Shown one piece after another: positions 41,996-56,083 of a DNA stretch of 64,000 nt (position 1 is the stretch's first letter; each line of letters begins with the position of its first letter). This stretch comes from Gracilaria domingensis. Its lineage: Eukaryota; Rhodophyta; Florideophyceae; Gracilariales; Gracilariaceae. The stretch is from positions 124,001-188,000 of the forward strand of contig VCMS01000016.1 of NCBI GenBank assembly GCA_022539475.1, read 5' to 3'. A program made the translations under genes and the position numbers. The notes beneath the pieces were generated by a model. The model searched no databases. It was not told the origin of the DNA and worked only from the letters and a program-made list of their open reading frames with translations.

Positions 41996-42026
<31 letters not shown>

Positions 42027-43103
42027 TCGTCGTCGTCGTCCGGCCTGCACGGCCGCCGCTCGCTGCGCGCGCGCGCGCCGTCCGCGCCGCGCGCGGCCGC
42101 GCCCGCGGCGGCGCGCGCGCGCGGCCGCGGGCGGTGGAGCATGATCGCGACGGGCGAGCCGCTGGAGGACTGGCTGCACCGCGTGGACAAGGACCTCGGC
42201 AAGTGCACGCGCTCCATCTTTGCGGCGTGCAAGGAGATTGCGTACAAGATTCGCACCGCGTCGTGCGACAAGATGTCGTGCTTCAACGACTTTGGCGACG
42301 AGCAGCTGGCGATCGACGTGCTGGCCGACAAGGTGATGTTTGACAACCTGGCGGCGTCGGGCGTGGTGGCCATGGCCAGCTCGGAGGAGGTGCCGCAGGA
42401 GAAGAAGGTGACGGACGGCGGCCAGTTCTCGGTGGCGTTTGACCCGCTGGACGGCAGCTCCATCATCGACACCAACTTTTCGGTGGGCACCATCTTTGGC
42501 GTGTGGAAGGGGCAGTCGTTTGTGGGGCAGGACGGGCGCGGCGTGGTGGGCGCCGGGCTGGCCATCTACGGGCCGCGCACGACGATCACGCTGGCCATCG
42601 ACGGCGTGGAGGGCGCGCACGAGTTTCTGCTGATTGACGACTTCTCGGCCAAGCACGGCTCGTGGATCCACACGGCGGCGTTCCACGCGGTGAACGAGGG
42701 CAAGCTGTTCGCGCCGGGCAACATGCGCGCGGCGCAGGACAACCCGGGCTACGCCAAGCTGCTGCAGCACTACTACGCCGAAAAGTACCAGCTGCGGTAC
42801 ACGGGCGGCATGGTGCCGGACGTGAACCAGATCCTGGTCAAGGGCAAGGGCGTGTTCTGCAACCCGGCGTCGCCGTCGGCCAAGGCCAAGCTGCGCGTGC
42901 TGTACGAGGTGCTGCCCATTGGGTACGTGGTGGAGAAGGCGGGCGGCAAGAGCAGCAACGGCGCCGGCTCGGTGCTGGACATGAAGATTGCGGGCTGCGA
43001 GGAGCGCTCGCAGGTGTGCTACGGCTCGGCGGGCGAGGTGCGGCGCTTTGAGGAGCTGGTGGGCGTCACGTACGCGGCGGAGGAGGCGGCGGCGGCCAAG
43101 TAG
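41931..43103 (+). CDS. SBPase: Sedoheptulose-1,7-bisphosphatase, plastid precursor
   Basis: Calvin-Benson cycle enzyme of the stroma; removes the C1 phosphate of sedoheptulose 1,7-bisphosphate. 390 residues: an Ala/Arg/Pro transit peptide of about 65-70 residues, then the catalytic body. SBPase rather than FBPase is indicated by KIRTASCDKMSCFNDFGDEQ, SVAFDPLDGSSIIDTNFSVG, IYGPRTTITLAIDGVEG, HEFLLIDD and LRYTGGMVPDVNQILVKGKG. The metal-binding DPLDGSS is intact. The two Cys of the C-x4-C pair (CDKMSC) that allow thioredoxin control in plant SBPase are present, so light-redox regulation is likely. Almost all codons end in G or C. It faces the same direction as the next four genes. Confidence 0.93.
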
Positions 43104-43207
43104 CAAAGTGTTTTTTTTTTTTTTAAAAGGATATCGCACGCTGAGCCTGGTATCATATAGGTTCACTTGCAAACTTGTGTGTATCTATCGTCGTTTGCTT
43201 GGCGACA

Positions 43208-43664
43208 TGGCGGCGGCGCGCAGCGACGAGGATGACGTGCGCACGCTGAGCAGCGCGCGCGCCGACGGCACGGAGGCGCGCGTGTACGCGCTGCTGCTGG
43301 CGCTGCAGGGCCCGACGGCGCGGCGGCCGCGCGCGACGCGCGGCGGCGGCCGCCGCGCGCGCGGCTGCTGCTGGCGGACAGCGCCGACAGCCGCGCCGAC
43401 TGGGAGCTGTGCATCTGGGGCGCGCAGGCGCTGCACTGCGCCACGCTGCGCGTCGGCGACGTGCTGGAGCTGCGCAACGTGCGCGCGCTGCGCGCGCAGC
43501 GCCGGCTGCTGTTCGCGGCGCACAGCTGCGTGCGGCGCGTGTTCGCCGCGGAGCGCCGCGCGCTGCGCCGCCTGCTGGCGGTGCGCGACGCGCGGCTGCG
43601 CGACTGCCTGCGCCTGCGCATTCGCACGCGCGAGTGGGCGCGCGCCGCGGACGTGGCCGAGGCG

Positions 43665-43719
<55 letters not shown>

Positions 43720-44225
43720 ACGAGGCGCGCGCGGCGGCGCGCGGCGAGGTGGTGGCGGTGCGCGTGCTGTGGCTGCGCGCGCGGCGCGAGCGCGGCGATG
43801 GCGATGGCGACGGCGGCGGCGGCGGCGACGCGCTGCGCGCGCTGGCGGACGCGCTGCGCGGCGGCGTGCGCGCGCGCTGCGCGCCGACGGGCGCGCGCGC
43901 GCCGTGCGCGTGGCGGCGGCCGGCGCGGCTGGCGGCGTGCTGCGCGCGCGCGGCGGCGCGGCAGTGGCGCTACGGCGCGCTGTACGCGGGCGCGCGGCGG
44001 CTGGACGCGCGCGGCGGCGAGCTGGTGGCGCGGCTGGACGCCGACGCGGTGGCCGCGCTGGCCGGCTTCTCGCCGCGCGCCGCGTGGGCCGCGCCGGCCG
44101 CCGCGCGCTGGGCGGCCGCGTCCGCCGCCAGCGCGGTGGGCGCGCGCGCGCGCCTGGCGCTGCGGCCGCGCGCCGCCGCCGCCGCCGCCGCCGCCGTGGC
44201 GGACGTGCGCGAGCTGCTGGTGTGA
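43208..44225 (+). CDS. OB-fold protein, POT1/telomere-end-binding-like, with frameshift
   Basis: Starts MAAARSDEDDVRTLSSARAD and reads as an OB fold: EARVYALLLALQGP, then in the next frame RLLLADSADSRADWELCIWG, LHCATLRVGDVLELRNVRA and RRLLFAAHSCVRRVFA. The order of a strand entry (LSS...G..ARVYALL), a nucleic-acid-binding hydrophobic strand, WGxxA and RVGDVLELRNVR resembles the first OB domain of POT1-type telomere proteins, but single-strand DNA proteins of other kinds share it. The two frames meet inside a CG-dinucleotide stretch near 43351-43371, where one CG unit more or less restores continuity; a sequencing or slippage indel is likely. The remaining 230 residues include a (GA)n dipeptide run from a GCGGGC hexamer array (43675-43720). 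Total about 338 residues. Not plastid-targeted by appearance, and unlike its neighbours it has no poly-C leader (an AT-rich leader instead). Confidence 0.5.
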
Positions 44226-44350
44226 GGCTGCAAATGTATTGGCCGCGCTGCGCGCGCGCCGCCGAATCGATTTGCAGCGCCGCATAAACGAGCGCGCGCC
44301 GCGCGCGCTTGCCCGCCGCGCCGCGCCGCGCCGCGCCGCCCGACCCGCCA

Positions 44351-44367
44351 CCCCCCCCCCCCCCCCC
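44351..44367 (+). promoter_or_regulatory. Poly-C tract upstream of sigma factor
   Basis: C17 ending 16 bases before the ATG in the context GCCGCCATG. Confidence 0.5.
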
Positions 44368-44383
44368 ATCCACCCCCGCCGCC

Positions 44384-45340
44384 ATGTGCCGCGGCGCGCT
44401 GTCGGCGTTCGTCGCGCCCGCGCCGCTTGCCGCCGCCGCCGCCGCCGCCGCTGTCGCGCCCGCCTGCGCGCGCGCGCCGCCGCGGCTGGCGGCGCCACCG
44501 CCACCGCCGCCGCCGCCGGCGACGCCGTCGGCGCGCGCGCTGCTGCGCGACATTCGGCCGCTGTACCTGCGCCACAAGCGGCAGCAGCAGCAGCAGCAGC
44601 AGCAGCGCCAGCGCGGCGGCGGCGGCGGCGGCGCGCCGCCCGACGACATGCCGCCGGCGCAGTTGCAGCGCGCCATCCGCGCGCGCAACCAGCTGGTGGC
44701 GCTGCACCTGCCGCTGGCGCGCGCGGCGGCGGCGCGCGTGGCGGCGGCCACGGGCGCCGAGCGCGCCGACCTGCTGCAGGAGGGCGCCATCGCGCTCATC
44801 CGCGCCGCCGAGCGCTTCGACGCGGCGCGCCGCCCGCGCGCCAAGTTCTCCACGTACGCGTACCGCGCCGTGCGCACGGCGACGTGGCGCGCCGTCGCGC
44901 CCGCCTGCGACATGGTGCGCGTGCCCGCGCGCGTGCGCCGCGCGCTGTTCGGCGCGCCCGCCGCGCCGCCGCTGTCGCGCGAGCGGCGCGCGCGCGCGGC
45001 GCGGCTGCTGGCGCCGCGCCGCCTGGACGCGCCGCTGGCCGCGGCCGGCGGCCGCACGCTGGCCGACGTGCTGCCCGCGCGCCGCGCGACGCCGCCGCCG
45101 CCGCGCGCGCCGCCGCCGCGCGAGCAGATCCGCGACGCGTGCCTGCGCAGCCTGCCGCGCCGCTGGGCCGCCGTGCTCATCTGGCGCTACGGGCTGCACG
45201 TCGACCCGCCGCGCGGCGTGCGCCACGTCGCCGCGCGCCTCGCCATCTCCGAGCCGCGCGTCACGCAGATCGCCGCCGCCGCGCGCGAGCGCCTGCGCGC
45301 GCGCGAGCCCGGTCTGGCCGAGCTGCTGCCCGACGTGTGA
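44384..45340 (+). CDS. Plastid RNA polymerase sigma-70 factor
   Basis: Nuclear-encoded specificity factor for the bacterial-type plastid RNA polymerase. 318 residues. An Ala/Pro-rich N terminus looks like a transit peptide and is followed by a Gln run (CAG repeat). Region 2 is at about residues 105-175: ARNQLVALHLPLARAAAARV, LLQEGAIALIRAAERFDAA and KFSTYAYRAVRTATWRAV, matching the core-binding and -10 melting helices. Region 3 is short and degenerate. Region 4 near the C terminus: LRSLPRRWAAVLIWRYGL, GVRHVAARLAISEPRVTQIA with a helix-turn-helix for -35 recognition. Region 1 is absent, as in most plastid sigmas. Codons are nearly all G/C-ending, so substitution by Ala and Arg is heavy and the class (SIG1-6) cannot be assigned. 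Confidence 0.85.
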   Translation: MCRGALSAFVAPAPLAAAAAAAAVAPACARAPPRLAAPPPPPPPPATPSARALLRDIRPLYLRHKRQQQQQQQQRQRGGGGGGAPPDDMPPAQLQRAIRARNQLVALHLPLARAAAARVAAATGAERADLLQEGAIALIRAAERFDAARRPRAKFSTYAYRAVRTATWRAVAPACDMVRVPARVRRALFGAPAAPPLSRERRARAARLLAPRRLDAPLAAAGGRTLADVLPARRATPPPPRAPPPREQIRDACLRSLPRRWAAVLIWRYGLHVDPPRGVRHVAARLAISEPRVTQIAAAARERLRAREPGLAELLPDV

Positions 45341-45408
45341 CCGCCTTTTTTTGACAGCGCAGCAACCCGCCCGCCGTAAATGCCATCGCCTCCGCGTTTC
45401 CCGCGCCG

Positions 45409-45428
45409 CCCCCCCCCCCCCCCCCCCC
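45409..45428 (+). promoter_or_regulatory. Poly-C tract upstream of the 45469 gene
   Basis: C20 run ending 40 bases before the ATG, again with a GCCGCCATG start context. Confidence 0.5.
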
Positions 45429-45468
45429 GCGCCCCCTCGATACCCGTCGCCGCGCGCCGCGCGCCGCC

Positions 45469-45870
45469 ATGCCGCGCGCCGCCTTCGCCGCGCATTGCCC
45501 CTGCGCCGCGCCGCGCACGCCCACCGCCGCCGCCGCGCCGCGCCGCGCGCGCGCGCGCGCGCGCCCCCCCCGCGCCGCGCGCCTCCGCATGCGCCACGAC
45601 CGCGAGCCGCAGCCGCAGCCGCCGCCGCCGCCGCCGCCGCAGCCGCGCCGCGCGCGCCAGCCGCCGCGCGACGACGTGCGCGAGCACGCCGCCGACGACG
45701 ACACGCCCGTCGAGCTGGCCGACGCGCTGCTCGACCCGGCCGCCAGCCGCGCGCGCCTGCGCGTCGACGCCGACGAGTGGCTGCTGCTGCGCCGCCTGCG
45801 CCGCACGCTGCACCGCGACGACTTTGCCCGCATCTTCGACGCCTCCGACCGCCGCATCGGCGAGCTCTGA
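45469..45870 (+). CDS. Small hypothetical protein, probably plastid-targeted
   Basis: 133 residues. The first 60 are Ala/Arg/Pro-rich with a single Cys pair and look like a transit peptide (though GC pressure alone gives similar sequence). The remaining half is plausible folded protein: DDVREHAADDDTPVELADAL, LDPAASRARLRVDADEWLLL, RRLRRTLHRDDFARIF and DASDRRIGEL. Acidic then basic, with no motif I recognise. It shares the poly-C leader and Kozak-like start of the neighbouring plastid genes, which supports a real gene. The function is not stated because none can be supported. Confidence 0.5.
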   Translation: MPRAAFAAHCPCAAPRTPTAAAAPRRARARARPPRAARLRMRHDREPQPQPPPPPPPQPRRARQPPRDDVREHAADDDTPVELADALLDPAASRARLRVDADEWLLLRRLRRTLHRDDFARIFDASDRRIGEL

Positions 45871-46154
45871 GCCGCGCCGCGCCGCGCCGCGCCGCGCGCG
45901 CGCCGCCCGTGGCCCGGCGCGCGCGCGCGCGCGCGCTCTCGCGATGCGCGCGCGCCGCGCCGCCTCCGCCCAAAACGGCAGTAAAATGCGCGCCCCGCCG
46001 CGCCGTCCTCGCTTGGCGCCGCACCCGCGCCCAGCCGCCCGCCCCGCGTCCCGCCGCGTCCCGCCGCGCCGCCGCCGCCGCCCCGTTCACGCCCCTTCGC
46101 GCGCGCGCCCCGCGCCGCCCGCCCGCCCGCGCGCCGCTGCTCTGGCGCGTCGCT

Positions 46155-46192
<38 letters not shown>

Positions 46193-46373
46193 GTAGAGCT
46201 GTGCGCGCGCGCGCGCGCGCGCTCTTCATGTCTGCCGCCGCGCGCGTGCTTACAAGTGCTGCCGCCGTTCCGCTGCTGCGCCGCCCCCGCCCCCGCCCCC
46301 GCCCCCGCCCCCGCCCCCGCCCCCGCGCTCGCTCTCTTCTCCCCCGCTCACGGCGGCGCGCGCCCTTCCCAAC
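45871..46373. other. Extreme-GC intergenic region before the Na+/H+ exchanger
   Basis: Dominated by CG dinucleotide and GCC trinucleotide runs (46150-46192 is a GCC array). Includes a C5G hexamer array (46283-46325) 48 bases before the next ATG. Open frames here on both strands are composition artefacts. Confidence 0.5.
46283..46325 (+). repeat. C5G hexamer array before the exchanger start
   Basis: Seven tandem CCCCCG units. Like the poly-C tracts, it lies 15-50 bases upstream of a start codon. Confidence 0.6.
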
Positions 46374-48362
46374 ATGCCCGCCGTTCTCCCCGATCTGCTG
46401 CACGGCGCGCGTGAAGCCGCCACCGCCGCCACCGTGCTCGTGTCGTCCGTCGCGTCCCTCACCTCTGCCACCGTGCGCTCTGGCGGCGCCGCCGCCGCCG
46501 CCGACGCCGCGCACGCCGGCGGCATCCTCGGACCGCTCAACGGCGCCGACATTGTCATGATTCTGCTCTCAATCTCGCTGTCGCTGCACGTCGTCAACAA
46601 CCACTTCTTCGAGATTCCCTCCTCCGTCGCCATGGCCTTCGGCGCCATTCTCATGACGCTCGTGCTGCTCATTCTCAGCCACATCCCCATGCTGGGCGTG
46701 TACACCCTCGTGGAGGCCTTCCGCTCGCTGCTCAAGGACTTTCCGGAGCTGCTGCTCAACTACATGCTCGGCTTCCTGCTGTTCGCCGCCGCCATCGAGG
46801 TCGACTTTCGAAAGGTGGAGCGCATTCTCTCCACCGTCATTGCGCTCAGCGTCGTGTCCACCTTCCTCTCCACCTTCATTGTGGGCACCATGACCTACTT
46901 CCTCATGCAGAACATTGCGCACATGGACTTTGCCTGGTGCCTCCTGTTTGGCGCCATCGTGTCGCCCACCGACCCCGTCACCGTCATGTCCATCCTGCAG
47001 CAAAAGCCAGACCTGCTGCCCGAATCCGCAAGATACTTTGTCATTTGCGAGAGCCTTCTCAACGACGCCGTTGGCGTCGTTCTGTACTTTACCTTCAAGG
47101 AGATTGTCACCACCCCGGACATCACAGCCACGGGAATCATATCCATCATGTTTGAAAACATCGTCATGGAATGTGGCGTGGGCGCCATCATCGGCGTCTT
47201 GTTTGCCTGGATTGCCTACTCTGCCATCCGCACCACAAAGGAGCCGCTGCTGCAGGTTCTCATCACCTTTGTGCTCGTCGGCAACATCAACATGGTGTGC
47301 CGCCTCGTTCACGCCTCCATTCCGTTGGCGTCGGTGGGTGCGGGACTCTTCATCGGCACCTACGCCCCCAAGTTTGCCATGGATGAAGCGACAGATACCT
47401 TCCACAAAGTCTGGCACTTGGCAGACGAGACGCTCAACTCTGTCCTGTTCCTGCTCATTGGCGCCGCCGACCTTTTCTGGAACCCGCAGGACCTCGGCTG
47501 GGAAAACGTGTTGCTGCTCAGCGTCTCCACCGTGTGCATTTCCCTTTTCGCCCGCTTTGTGGCCGTCGTCATTCCGCTTCTCGCTATCATTCTACTAGAG
47601 TGGATGTTCAATCTCCAATTGCGACATTCTACCGTCAAGTACAGAGGCGGTACAATTGCGGTGCTAACGTGGGCGGGAATGCGAGGCGGTATCAGCATTG
47701 CATTGGCACTTGGTGTACCAGACGCGTTCGTCAAGCATGCCATACCAGGCCATATGACTTACGGACAGCTTATTTTCTTTATGACCTTTATTCTAGTGGT
47801 GTTCTCAATCGTTGTACAGGGCATGCTGTTTGAACCGGTTGTCAACATGATCAACCGAGTCAGCTACCAGATCCTTCCTAGTGGAGGTCTGAGCACCATG
47901 GAATCTCAAATGAGTCTGGTTCCGGAATATGGAGCAATTGGCTTTGAATCGGGAGATGAATCAGCCATGTCAGGGGACCTCATGTGGGGCGACAACGATC
48001 AATTATTCAAAGACTATCCTGATGGATCAGATTCTTCAAGCCCCCCAATTGAGTACGAGGAGCGTGAAGGCCTCCCGCGAGCTCACACCGACACCAGACT
48101 GCATGATGCAGTGGGAAACCTTCAACAGATGGGCCATTATCGAGAGCCGTCCAACATCTTCAACGATCTTCCCAAGCTGCGCGAGCCGCCGACAATCCAA
48201 CAGGTTATCTCAAACATCCAGCGTGGTACTTTTTCGTTCAACAAATTGTTTGGCGCGCGGCAGCCAAAGGAGGAAGCGGGAACAAAGAGTCGTCTAAAAC
48301 GTTCTCGTACAGAGCCCGATACACACAGGTTTTTGGCACACGAGTCACATGGATCTGGCTAA
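46374..48362 (+). CDS. CPA1-family Na+/H+ exchanger
   Basis: Membrane antiporter exchanging Na+ (or K+) for H+, 662 residues with about 12 hydrophobic spans. Key motifs of the cation:proton antiporter fold are visible: LLFAAAIEVDFRKV, LLFGAIVSPTDPVTV (proton/ion-site Asp in the SPTDP motif), VICESLLNDAVGVVLYF (ESLLND active site), GLFIGTYAPKFAM, FLLIGAADLFW and GGTIAVLTWAGMRGGISIAL (conserved Arg/Gly). The C-terminal 160 residues are cytosolic, acidic and Ser-rich. The ESLLND and TWAGMRGGISIAL pattern resembles bacterial NhaP/plant NHX-SOS1 relatives; location (plasma membrane, vacuole or plastid) is unclear. Third codon positions are extreme G/C until about 47580, then ordinary. Confidence 0.92.
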   Translation: MPAVLPDLLHGAREAATAATVLVSSVASLTSATVRSGGAAAAADAAHAGGILGPLNGADIVMILLSISLSLHVVNNHFFEIPSSVAMAFGAILMTLVLLILSHIPMLGVYTLVEAFRSLLKDFPELLLNYMLGFLLFAAAIEVDFRKVERILSTVIALSVVSTFLSTFIVGTMTYFLMQNIAHMDFAWCLLFGAIVSPTDPVTVMSILQQKPDLLPESARYFVICESLLNDAVGVVLYFTFKEIVTTPDITATGIISIMFENIVMECGVGAIIGVLFAWIAYSAIRTTKEPLLQVLITFVLVGNINMVCRLVHASIPLASVGAGLFIGTYAPKFAMDEATDTFHKVWHLADETLNSVLFLLIGAADLFWNPQDLGWENVLLLSVSTVCISLFARFVAVVIPLLAIILLEWMFNLQLRHSTVKYRGGTIAVLTWAGMRGGISIALALGVPDAFVKHAIPGHMTYGQLIFFMTFILVVFSIVVQGMLFEPVVNMINRVSYQILPSGGLSTMESQMSLVPEYGAIGFESGDESAMSGDLMWGDNDQLFKDYPDGSDSSSPPIEYEEREGLPRAHTDTRLHDAVGNLQQMGHYREPSNIFNDLPKLREPPTIQQVISNIQRGTFSFNKLFGARQPKEEAGTKSRLKRSRTEPDTHRFLAHESHGSG

Positions 48363-52584: not shown

Positions 52585-52774
52585 GGATTATGCATCTCTT
52601 CCTTCTTCTTGCTTCTCGTATTTATTGACGAGGGTCTCGACCATTGGGCTTGCAGAACCGTTTACAACAGATGGGGCAGGATTATGCATCTCTTCCTTCT
52701 TCTTGCTTCTCGTATTTATTGACGAGGGTCTCGACCATTGGGCTTGCAGAACCGTTTACAACAGATGGGGCAGG
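52585..52774. repeat. Exact 94-bp tandem duplication at the 3' end of the PPK1-Nudix gene
   Basis: Two identical 94-bp copies (52585-52678 and 52679-52772) plus the shared two bases. The second contains the last codons and stop (TAA at 52682-52684) of the kinase gene; the first is now 3' untranslated. Perfect identity indicates a recent event or an assembly artefact. Confidence 0.85.
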
Positions 52775-55700
52775 GGTCGAACTGCCAGAATGAATTGAGC
52801 TGACGCCATGCGTTCCGCTGTGCACACTGCTATCATCCCTATTTCCTTCACCCCAAGACCTGACGGCAACGATTGCTCGTTCTAATGCTTTGGCGGTGAA
52901 TTCATGCCGGTGCTCACCGATTGAATATTCGAGCGCTTCTCGAATCGGCATCCACTTGCGCCTTCTATTGCGACCAACGGTTGTACCCAGTTCCTTGGCA
53001 AGCAGGACAACTGTTTGGAAAGCGGCATGTTTTTGCCCTTTGTCCACTTCGATCCACCCAAGGTTCGCGAGAACTTCATAGCTGGAAACACCTGCTTTTT
53101 CCCGTGCGATCCTGATTGTAGCCCCAATCTGAGTTTCGCCTTCATTCTGACCACCTTTTGGAACAGCCCAAGGATCATCGGGTTCACGTGCGACCATTAG
53201 CACCTGAATTCCATCCACATCTCCATGCGCTGAAACAAACCGTATAGGCACTACTCCGACGGCAATCTTATCTACTGTCTTCGTGTTACCCTTAATATTG
53301 ATAATGTAACGAGGACGGGATCTGCCTCTCTTAGGAGACTTCTTCCCTTCTACAGGAATTTCAAACCTTGGCATTGAGTCTCTCACGTCCGATGCTTCAC
53401 GAATGGAATCCTCCACTGTGTCACTCTCAATAACCGCAGATCCATCGGGGGTTGGCACGAAGTCCAGCAGCTCATGACTCCGTTCATCTCCGTCGCTGTC
53501 ACTACTTCTGATCTCAGACTTCTTGGATTTGGATTTGAAGACATCTTTGGGCCTCGGGGCGATAGAGACTGACACCGGTGGTGATGTAGACGCTGGGAAT
53601 CCTTTGTAATAGTGTCCATCTGGAGCCATTCTCCATATCCATTTAGCGTCATCGATGAGCTCGAACGCCTTAGACAAACGCTTCCGCAGGTATGCATCTT
53701 TGATAGGGACGATAACTTCGACTCGGCCTACGAGGTTTCTCGTTCTCCAGTCTGCAGATCCGATAAAATATTTTCCTTCCCCACCAGCATGGAAATAATA
53801 CACTCGACGGTGTTGCAAAACCTGGCCAAACCAAGAGTAAACGTTAATGTTTTCGCTCAAGCCTTTAATGCCAGGCCTAATTCTGCACGCAGCTCTGACT
53901 AGTAAGTCAATTTTGACCCCTGCTCGTGACGCTTCGTAGAGTTCTTCAGTGATCTTCTTGTCGGATAAACCGTTCATCTGACACGCAATTCTCGCTGGCC
54001 GTCCCTCCCTGGCATTCTTCGCTTCCTCTCGAATTAGTTCGATAAAGCGATCCTGCATGTTAACCGGGGATACCAGCAGACACCGAAAGTCTGTATTCTC
54101 TGAGTACCCTGTCAGATGATTGAAGACATCGAGCACATCTGTACAGATGTCCTTATCGCAGGTGAACAAACAGTAGTCTGTATACAACTTTGCGGTTTTC
54201 GGATTGAAATTCCCGGTTGAGATGCTGCAGTAGGAACACAAGTTTCCATGGCTTTCTTCGCGAACTACTAGCATTATCTTGCTGTGGACCTTGAGCCCCA
54301 TCATACCGTAGGTCACATTACAACCGGCAACTTGGAGAGCTCGAGCATATTCAGAGTTCTGAATTTCATCGAATGAGGCCTTTAGTTCAATGATCACGCT
54401 GACTTCCTTGCCGTTCTTCGCAGCACGAATGAGAGCAGCAACAATTGGGGAGTTCTCTCCTCCCCGATAAAGAACCGATTTAATCGAGCGAACCTTAGGG
54501 TCGCGAGCAGCAGCATGCAGAAAAAGAACGGCAGAGTTCTCGAAATTGTCCCTTGGGTACTCCACCAATACATCTTCCTTTCCGATAACTCCAAAAATGG
54601 CCCCAGGGTGGGCAATTAGACGATTCTGCAGGCCCTTGAAAGCAGAAGGAACGACAGGATCTCGTATGACTTGACGAAGCCATGGCAGTGGGACAAATGC
54701 CAGTGACATGCAGCTGGAAAGATCAAGATATGGAGTGTCCACGACGTAAACATCGAGTTCGTCGAGGCAGAGTTTGTTCACCAACAAATCAATCATTTGT
54801 GAAGGTGCATCGCTCATTACCTCCAGTCGAGTGGCTGGTGCCTGTCTTCTTCGATGAACTTCGTCCACGATGAAGTCTAACAGGTCGGTCATATCACTGA
54901 GACTCTCGTCTTCAATAGAAATCTTGGTGTTTCTGGTAACTCGGAATGGATAGGCATTCATGATGGTCATTGAGTGACAGACAAGATTCAGATTGGCGAG
55001 ACAAACATCCTCCGATGTGATAAACTTTAGACCTGTATCATCTATTGGGATGAGTCTATTCTTTGATGGACATCGGAAAAGAACTATGCGCTTGGAGCCG
55101 TTCTTTGGGTTGAACAGACGAACATAGATATATATGTCATGACTCTGAATGAGAGGGAAGGGATGGGTAGCATCAATGATGGTTGGAGTTAGAGCGGGAC
55201 GGAGGTTTTGCTTGAAATAAGCAGTCATGTTGCCCTTTTGTTCTGCCGTAAGGCGGTCATGAGGAACAATTTGAACGCCGCGTTCCGCAAGCTGTGGCAG
55301 CAGCTCTGTGGTCAAGCACTCACTCTGCTTTTCCATGATGGTACGCAGCGCAGCGGTGAGATCTTCTTCGTACCTGGTCTTCGGCCTCACATGACGACGA
55401 AGATTGATAGTTGCGGTCTTGAGGTCATTGAGGTCGAGCTTTGGAATGGAGCCCAAGCGCTTGGAAAAATGCTCGTCCAGAGAAGAAGAAACGATACAGA
55501 GGAATTTGAAACGGTCAAGAAGCGGAACGAAAGGGTCCATAGCCATGGAGAGCACGCGACACATCATACTGAGCTCTGCGAATTCCTTGGAGAAGATGAT
55601 GTCACTCTGAGCCAGCTCCTTGGCACCCAGCGAGGAGAGCTCGGAATGCGGAGCGTAATGAACTCGTTCGTCAAACGGGCAGATTATACTTTCGTACGAG

Positions 55701-56083
55701 TGTCCATCAGGTGTTGTGACGATAGCCTTGGAGTTGAGGTCGTTCCCATGCACGCTAGGAGAAAGAACCTCGGCAGATGGGTGACGCACGACAGGCTGAA
55801 CTGCATTGCGCGTCTGCTGGAGATTGAGAGACGATGAGGAATTCTGCGAGGTGAGATGCGGTTGCGGGGACTGGTGCGAGGCGGACAACGCGGCAAAGAC
55901 AGCCTCCGCGTCATTGCCCTTGGCACGCACGGCGACCAAACCAGAGGCGGGCGATGACAAGGGAGTATTGGCGAGAGTCCAGTCGCTGAAGTTGTGCGCC
56001 AGCACGGCACCATTGGCATCCGAGACGGGACTAGATTCGAAAGCGGCCTGCGCGCGCGCTGAAAAGGCAGTGGATTGCGGCAT
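52682..56083 (-). CDS. PPK1: Polyphosphate kinase 1 fused to a Nudix-like domain
   Basis: Bacterial-type PPK1 reversibly polymerises ATP gamma-phosphate into polyphosphate through phosphohistidine. 1133 residues in one exon. The N domain begins about residue 160: SKEFAELSMMCRVLSMAMD, then LKFLCIVSSSLDE-type FKFLCIVSSSLDEHFSKRLG. Catalytic part: ENSPIVAALIRAAKNGKEVS, GLKVHSKIMLVV (first catalytic His), STGNFNPKTAKLYTDYC, IACQMNGLSDKKI, RPGIKGLSENINVYSW and LQHRRVYYF (second His), ending about 820. An acidic Ser-rich linker follows. A C-terminal Nudix fold at about 939-1075 reads VGVVPIRFVSAHGDVDGIQV, PWAVPKGGQNEGETQIGATI, RIAREKAG, KWMPIREALEYS. The Nudix box has Ile and Lys where the consensus has two Glu. 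PPK1 motifs are complete, so activity is expected. No clear transit peptide. The 3' end lies in an exact tandem duplication. Confidence 0.88.
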   Translation of the reverse strand: MPQSTAFSARAQAAFESSPVSDANGAVLAHNFSDWTLANTPLSSPASGLVAVRAKGNDAEAVFAALSASHQSPQPHLTSQNSSSSLNLQQTRNAVQPVVRHPSAEVLSPSVHGNDLNSKAIVTTPDGHSYESIICPFDERVHYAPHSELSSLGAKELAQSDIIFSKEFAELSMMCRVLSMAMDPFVPLLDRFKFLCIVSSSLDEHFSKRLGSIPKLDLNDLKTATINLRRHVRPKTRYEEDLTAALRTIMEKQSECLTTELLPQLAERGVQIVPHDRLTAEQKGNMTAYFKQNLRPALTPTIIDATHPFPLIQSHDIYIYVRLFNPKNGSKRIVLFRCPSKNRLIPIDDTGLKFITSEDVCLANLNLVCHSMTIMNAYPFRVTRNTKISIEDESLSDMTDLLDFIVDEVHRRRQAPATRLEVMSDAPSQMIDLLVNKLCLDELDVYVVDTPYLDLSSCMSLAFVPLPWLRQVIRDPVVPSAFKGLQNRLIAHPGAIFGVIGKEDVLVEYPRDNFENSAVLFLHAAARDPKVRSIKSVLYRGGENSPIVAALIRAAKNGKEVSVIIELKASFDEIQNSEYARALQVAGCNVTYGMMGLKVHSKIMLVVREESHGNLCSYCSISTGNFNPKTAKLYTDYCLFTCDKDICTDVLDVFNHLTGYSENTDFRCLLVSPVNMQDRFIELIREEAKNAREGRPARIACQMNGLSDKKITEELYEASRAGVKIDLLVRAACRIRPGIKGLSENINVYSWFGQVLQHRRVYYFHAGGEGKYFIGSADWRTRNLVGRVEVIVPIKDAYLRKRLSKAFELIDDAKWIWRMAPDGHYYKGFPASTSPPVSVSIAPRPKDVFKSKSKKSEIRSSDSDGDERSHELLDFVPTPDGSAVIESDTVEDSIREASDVRDSMPRFEIPVEGKKSPKRGRSRPRYIINIKGNTKTVDKIAVGVVPIRFVSAHGDVDGIQVLMVAREPDDPWAVPKGGQNEGETQIGATIRIAREKAGVSSYEVLANLGWIEVDKGQKHAAFQTVVLLAKELGTTVGRNRRRKWMPIREALEYSIGEHRHEFTAKALERAIVAVRSWGEGNRDDSSVHSGTHGVSSIHSGSSTPAPSVVNGSASPMVETLVNKYEKQEEGRDA

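Follow-up and report, generated by a model that had tools for sequence, protein, structure and literature searches.

Does a red-algal protein in which a polyphosphate kinase (PPK1) is continued by a Nudix domain make polyphosphate, and does it trim or sense the product? This question is raised by one gene of the window (the whole stretch of Gracilaria domingensis DNA that was analysed, 64,000 nucleotides). The coding frame (52682..56083, minus strand) is an ORF of 1133 codons without interruption, giving a protein of 1133 amino acids with PPK1 first and Nudix second, just as the first-pass annotation had described a single uninterrupted frame for both domains. An in-frame TGA stands two codons ahead of the ATG. 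The first 155 residues (55619..56083, minus strand) form an N-terminal extension without a Pfam match, and 26 of these 155 are Ser. An exact tandem duplication of two 94-bp copies (52585..52774) spans the 3' end of the gene and its stop codon. The genome search found this gene as the sole full-length copy, and the second copy of the 94-bp duplication also turned up in it. Bacterial contamination was ruled out, because the adjoining frames on the contig are of eukaryotic-type families (RIO2, ATP-citrate lyase-like, synaptobrevin) and the contig belongs to a genome of 77.9 Mb. Phycobilisome and phycoerythrin genes are present in the same genome; the phycoerythrin alpha chain comes nearest to PDB entry 1eyx (about 16 differences among 157 positions, counted by hand) and phycocyanin alpha to 5y6p.

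The PPK1 core comprises residues 164–827 with the N, middle, C1 and C2 domains (53603..55594, minus strand). It matched the whole TIGR03705 equivalog model with 607.3 bits (curated cut-off 465.85), all four Pfam PP_kinase domains exceeded their cut-offs, and the PDB search retrieved E. coli PPK1 (1xdo) with an E-value of 1.6e-90. We compared its residues, as the one red-algal sequence, with 86 prokaryotic PPK1s. H600 (54284..54286) and H758 (53810..53812), both on the minus strand, correspond to E. coli H435 and H592, which are His in all 86 sequences; the R375, Y468, D470 and R564 positions (E. coli numbering) are also retained. Three other positions have changed to Ser: S201 (55481..55483) at N45, S570 (54374..54376) at R405 and S620 (54224..54226) at H454, all on the minus strand. 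We take N45, R405 and H454 to be active-site residues with catalytic roles. The earlier description of the PPK1 motifs as complete is thus right for the two histidines but not for these three positions. As the replaced residues are conserved in 83, 86 and 86 of the 86 homologues, respectively, polyphosphate synthesis by the fusion is in doubt, and its kinase may be impaired, the substitutions being known from one red-algal sequence.

These data bear on the reading that the fusion is a fully working bifunctional enzyme, whose PPK1 makes polyphosphate with a rearranged site and whose Nudix part trims polyphosphate or inositol pyrophosphates. The intact frame agrees with it, as do the conserved PPK1 columns of the 86-sequence set: the fusion keeps 98 of 116, H435 and H592 among them, and departs at 18. 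The invariance of Arg and His at the R405 and H454 positions argues against it. E. coli PPK1, which is an active enzyme, departs at more conserved columns (27 of 122), yet keeps all the listed catalytic positions.

The two domains are joined by a linker of mixed charge, rich in Ser (residues 828–935; 53279..53602, minus strand). It had been called acidic and Ser-rich. The latter holds (15 Ser among the 96 residues 840–935), but the same segment has 18 Asp and Glu against 20 Lys and Arg and is not simply acidic.

The Nudix domain was modelled as residues 925–1090 (52814..53311, minus strand). PF00293 matched residues 960–1063 with 29 bits (cut-off 21.1), and the best PDB sequence matches were DIPPs (best E-value 4.7e-6). 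A structure model from the single sequence was poor (pLDDT 47.7) and was set aside in favour of one built on aligned rows, namely the fusion itself and 30 of the 31 bacterial Nudix proteins linked to ppk1; the omitted one, L051, came from a plasmid collection. The resulting model had a mean pLDDT of 83.7, and all 50 among the Foldseek matches listed had a probability of 1.00, led by MutT1, DIPP3, DIPP2 and DDP1. The Nudix fold, for which structure prediction had been proposed as the check, is therefore supported, and the likeness to DIPP-type enzymes claimed at first was borne out by both the sequence and the fold matches.

The Nudix box, in contrast to the consensus GX5EX7REUXEEXGU, is degenerate. 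It covers residues 977–999 (53087..53155, minus strand) and reads GGQNEGETQIGATIRIAREKAGV. R991 and E995 are retained, while the Glu of RE (E16 of the consensus) is I992 and the final Glu of EE (E20) is K996. With Ile and Lys in place of two of the three RExxEE glutamates, hydrolysis by the Nudix part is unlikely. A strict box is also absent from other Nudix matches of this genome (8 of 16, the fusion included). In yeast Ddp1, E80 corresponds to I992, E83 to the retained E995 and E84 to K996. According to the available text on Ddp1, the E80Q mutant loses catalysis and retains substrate binding; ligand binding by the algal domain may therefore persist, as far as can be judged from a few residues. 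The basic residues R41, H91 and R115 of DIPP1 have basic counterparts in R966, H1019 and an Arg within RNRRRKW (alignment read by hand). DIPP1 R89 is Q1017 in the fusion, and R10, K18 and R20 fall beyond the DIPP alignment used for this comparison. Ddp1 E84 holds Mg2+ and is absent among the Ddp1 mutants described in that text. The Lys found at this second lost glutamate likewise has no counterpart among them.

The bifunctional reading gains from the retained R991 and E995. Set against it, two of the three glutamates are lost, at one of which E80Q inactivates Ddp1 in the text cited above, and we consider a fully working enzyme improbable.

The substitutions themselves appear to be real. The Ser codons (TCT, TCA and AGC) are each two base changes away from the nearest codon for the expected Asn, Arg or His, which makes a sequencing error behind them unlikely. 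The ATC codon of I992 is three changes from Glu, and the AAA of K996 is one change from GAA. For four of the five substitutions, K996 being the exception, no codon of the expected residue can be reached with fewer than two base changes, and so these are not single read errors. A search of titles and abstract beginnings found no publication on these substitutions.

With both active sites altered while the frame stays open, it is conceivable that neither half is catalytic and that the protein is a scaffold or sensor for ATP, polyphosphate or inositol pyrophosphate, with little or no PPK-made polyphosphate in the alga. This fits the PPK1 tree, where the branch of the fusion is long (2.47; median 0.33). 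H435, H592 and the four further listed residues, however, are retained, and the losses are seen in a single sequence. We regard such a double loss as doubtful.

What else the genome encodes is relevant to each of these readings. A search with the PPK1 middle domain gave a single match, the fusion, and no match to VTC was found in the genome search. This favours a working PPK1 in the fusion, the genome having no other PPK1 or VTC match for making polyphosphate. In such an alga, without another PPK1 or a detectable VTC, the fusion might instead have become a double pseudoenzyme. A type of chain that elsewhere both makes and trims polyphosphate would then report the phosphate status by binding polyphosphate or inositol pyrophosphate, with no catalysis of either reaction; this version we hold to be rather unlikely. 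The candidates for inositol-pyrophosphate kinases are one match to the PPIP5K N-domain and three IPK-family loci. Each of the three has IPMK as its best PDB match, with IP6K weaker or near-equal. The Nudix protein of this genome nearest to the fusion (L009) is a stand-alone DIPP-like frame. Because its box is intact, trimming can occur elsewhere.

We weighed these readings against a PPK1–DIPP fusion in which a non-hydrolytic, ligand-binding Nudix domain is joined to an altered or weakened kinase, and we favour the latter at a probability of about one half. Since both halves carry replacements at key catalytic residues, the fusion may bind ligands without textbook catalysis. The Nudix part would have ceased to hydrolyse pyrophosphate bonds and would still bind inositol pyrophosphate or polyphosphate, serving as a regulatory module on the same chain as a PPK1 with altered or strongly reduced activity. 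The candidate PPIP5K and IPK-family loci of the same genome could supply the ligand. The initial proposal was that one chain both makes polyphosphate and senses or trims it. Trimming is unlikely with two glutamates lost, making is in doubt with three serines, and sensing may persist, being the most economical use of what is left. If the residue losses are also losses of activity, the alga would pull apart the question of making polyphosphate and that of sensing inositol pyrophosphate, since one half could then be studied as a pure binding module. As a caution, membership of the PPK1 family by sequence is no proof that an alga produces polyphosphate.

As to where the fusion comes from, Actinomycetota show the same order of genes, and descent from a bacterial ppk1–Nudix (mutT1-like) pair can be proposed on this ground. 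Among the 86 PPK1 loci, 31 are followed by a Nudix frame in the same orientation, all of them actinobacterial (31 of 38, against 0 of 48 others). Of these 31 Nudix frames, 29 match the strict box pattern and the remaining two keep RExxEE; 18 continue for more than 220 residues past the box, and a C-terminal histidine phosphatase domain was found in two of the five scanned. The algal Nudix part also scored nearly equally against the best of them (L076, 28.7 bits) and human DIPP2 (29.7 bits; 20.0 for its own-genome relative L009). However, a tree constrained to unite the fusion PPK1 with the actinobacterial rows was rejected (p-AU 0.018; the branch is long and the group was named after the tree had been seen), and the fused domain is called DIPP-type in the accessible part of a review (PMC12526157). 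Origin from the actinobacterial pair is thus disfavoured, and we consider it highly improbable. A cyanobacterial origin of PPK1 was not rejected (p-AU 0.17). The search for the same domain order among bacterial PPK1s, proposed along with the first reading, found no fused Nudix among the 86, where pairing is by neighbouring genes; only one frame (L052) extends more than 120 amino acids past the PPK1 match, and its listed letters contain no Nudix box. Two scans of viral_contigs (3 and 33 stretches) confirmed no viral relatives. The ppk1–Nudix gene order, found at 31 of 38 loci from Actinomycetota, suggests that the pairing of PPK1 and Nudix arose more than once.

One of the closest known systems is the PPK1–Nudix fusion of another red alga, Cyanidioschyzon merolae. 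This enzyme is reportedly required for polyphosphate in vivo, and mutation of its Nudix catalytic residues is said to alter the polyphosphate content. Such data suggest that this relative of the Gracilaria protein is a working bifunctional enzyme. Should the same serines occur in it, the kinase half of the G. domingensis fusion would not be impaired. The G. domingensis protein likewise has PPK1 followed by Nudix on one chain in a red alga and is presumably its orthologue. Compared with that description, the G. domingensis protein has a degenerate box. The first-pass annotation knew of no standard family with this architecture. According to the accessible part of the review, most eukaryotic PPK homologues are joined to DIPP-type Nudix domains (PMC12526157), and the C. 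merolae fusion has been studied (Yagisawa et al., Plant Mol Biol, doi 10.1007/s11103-024-01539-5, as cited in PMC12526157 and PMC12345225). The architecture as such is already known.

Bacterial PPK1 (E. coli 1xdo; TIGR03705) shares with the algal protein the four Pfam domains and the residues H435, H592, R375, Y468, D470 and R564. Unlike it, the fusion has Ser at N45, R405 and H454, an N-terminal extension and a C-terminal Nudix domain. The DIPPs (DIPP1, DIPP2, DIPP3 and yeast DDP1) share the fold and, for the DIPPs, the best PDB sequence matches; in contrast to DIPP1, the counterparts of E66 and E70 are I992 and K996, and the Nudix domain lies within a larger chain. The actinobacterial ppk1–Nudix pair (MutT1 type, with solved structures of M. 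smegmatis MutT1 and Rv2985) has a gene order equal to the fused domain order, and M. smegmatis MutT1 is the top Foldseek match of the algal Nudix model, but the pair consists of separate genes and not of a single chain. Going by these alignments, what is changed in G. domingensis is the catalytic residues of both halves, within a known type of fusion.

We observed that the fusion gene (52682–56083, minus strand) runs through 1133 codons without interruption in the ORF analysis, with an in-frame TGA two codons 5′ of its ATG. In the whole genome (77,892,253 bases, 680 contigs; the window is 124001–188000 of contig C16), it was the only full-length match and the sole match to the PPK1 middle domain. 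The Pfam scan gave matches in 9 of the 10 larger frames of the window and none in the other one; the neighbours include SWIRM/Myb, RIO2, ATP-citrate lyase-like, FBPase, sodium/hydrogen exchanger and synaptobrevin genes. From its sequence setting, the fusion gene is taken to be nuclear and eukaryotic. An exact 94 bp tandem duplication (52585–52774) covers the 3′ end of the gene together with its stop codon, so that roughly the last 31 codons recur directly behind the stop. As the copies are exactly identical, a recent duplication is suggested. Elsewhere in the window, G+C reaches 0.83 (44001–46000), and long frames overlap on both strands (42000–46500), one of them a sigma-factor-like candidate by eye.

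The gene content identifies the genome as that of a red alga. The phycobilisome linker family had 14 matches in the genome and the phycobiliproteins 12, 10 of the latter being on contig C680 (179,836 bases). This contig, which carries phycobilisome linker and phycobiliprotein genes (L030–L032, L037–L044, L046), is probably the plastid genome. PDB searches with C680 genes gave as nearest entries R-phycoerythrin alpha (1eyx) for one gene, a phycoerythrin-type beta chain (R-phycoerythrin beta second) for another, and phycocyanin alpha for a further one.

The PPK1 core (residues 164–827) matched the TIGR03705 equivalog with 607.3 bits (cut-off 465.85), and this part also matched all four Pfam PPK domains and E. 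coli PPK1 (1xdo). The fusion protein was aligned first with six plasmid-borne PPK1s, and its PPK1 core then with 86 prokaryotic PPK1s, comprising those six and the best 80 of at least 592 confirmed among at least 594 stretches in the genome_contigs scan. Both scan patterns accepted serine in place of R405 and H454, and therefore were not biased against the state of the fusion protein. E. coli residue numbers are the 1xdo chain index plus one, which agrees with the numbering of the two histidines, His435 and His592, that PMC6416319 gives for the E. coli structure. R375, H435, Y468, D470, R564 and H592 are retained in the fusion and identical in 86/86 sequences (including the best 80 of at least 592). 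In the same 86, again with the best 80 of at least 592, the N45 position is N in 83 and S201 in the fusion, while R405 and H454, invariant in all 86, are replaced by S570 and S620. According to work on E. coli PPK1, R405, H454 (H460 in older numbering) and N45 are important for catalysis. At columns ≥95% identical among these 86 rows (including the best 80 of at least 592), the fusion deviates at 18 of 116, the median row at 2 and the next most deviant prokaryotic PPK1s at 7; at 27/122, E. coli PPK1 lies far outside this range. The end branch of the fusion in the PPK1 tree is 2.47, compared to a median of 0.33.

The Nudix part exceeded the PF00293 cut-off, and its top PDB sequence matches were DIPP2 (2duk, titled MS0616; 7nnj), DIPP3 and DIPP1 (E 4.7e-6 and weaker). 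A structure model built from the fusion sequence and 30 ppk1-linked bacterial Nudix rows had a mean pLDDT of 83.7 and a pTM of 0.76. Foldseek against the PDB returned probability 1.00 for all 50 matches listed, led by MutT1, DIPP3, DIPP2 and DDP1; the rank of MutT1 may have been favoured by the bacterial rows behind the model. We compared the Nudix box, GGQNEGETQIGATIRIAREKAGV, with the pattern GX5EX7REUXEEXGU, taken from PMC8064635. R15, E7, E19 and G22 are retained, while E16 is replaced by I992 and E20 by K996. These correspond to E80 and E84 of yeast Ddp1, and the retained E995 to E83. E84 is a Mg2+ ligand and does not figure among the mutants described in passages of PMC8064635. Because the Ddp1 mutant E80Q, at the I992 position, lost catalysis but not substrate binding, loss of hydrolysis with retained binding is a documented state of the Nudix fold, though not for the exact I992 and K996 pair.

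Eight of the genome's 16 Nudix matches carry the strict box; the fusion belongs to the eight that do not. Some of the other non-strict matches resemble, by eye, other-box Nudix branches or single exons. The nearest own-genome Nudix, L009, is stand-alone and has the strict box.

Taken together, the sequence comparisons indicate that the protein is a red-algal PPK1-DIPP fusion with catalytic residues changed in both halves. Considering the residues retained in each half, a fully functional enzyme is possible; considering those replaced, a double pseudoenzyme is possible as well. Most likely, the Nudix half would bind its ligand without cleavage and the kinase half would be altered or weakened. 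Gracilaria domingensis could plausibly synthesize inositol pyrophosphates: its genome has three IPK-family kinase loci, all nearest to IPMK in the PDB (IP6K nearly equalled IPMK for L022 but scored lower for L020 and L021), and one PPIP5K N-domain match. Five SPX matches lie on two contigs. The VTC search of the genome gave no match; its 14 control genomes were all bacterial or archaeal, with no positive control from a eukaryote, and a weak case could be masked by introns.

A same-strand Nudix frame lies 3′ of ppk1 in 31 of 86 loci (L114:6106–6552, L076:2533–3354 and 29 further loci), that is, in 31/38 actinobacterial and 0/48 other loci, the 86 including the best 80 of at least 592. Of the 38, 36 were assigned by title; the other two are L051, an actinomycete plasmid record, and L131, whose title names Rhodococcus. 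Some Nudix frames may have been missed, because the flanks extended to 4 kb at the most, with less on small contigs and 1.5 kb on plasmids. PF00293 was present in 5/5 of the ppk1-linked frames scanned with Pfam, and a histidine phosphatase domain also in 2/5. A common origin of the fusion and the actinobacterial pair is disfavoured on the tree, since the fusion PPK1 does not group with theirs (p-AU 0.018, on a long branch and with the group defined only once the tree had been inspected). Nudix scores by themselves do not separate DIPP from ppk1-linked actinobacterial affinity.

A review (PMC12526157) states that PPK homologues of eukaryotes are mostly fused to DIPP-type Nudix domains, and cites a study on the fusion of C. 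merolae. In this C. merolae PPK1-Nudix study, deletion reportedly made polyP undetectable, and polyP is said to have risen when the catalytic residues of the Nudix part were mutated. PPK1 is present in C. merolae and Porphyra yezoensis, according to PMC3680246. Titles and opening lines of abstracts gave no account of the degenerate residues. The first-pass annotation had known of no standard family with this architecture; the PPK1-Nudix arrangement is, however, already known from the C. merolae fusion and is common to the Gracilaria domingensis protein. What the latter adds is its degenerate residues, and not its architecture.
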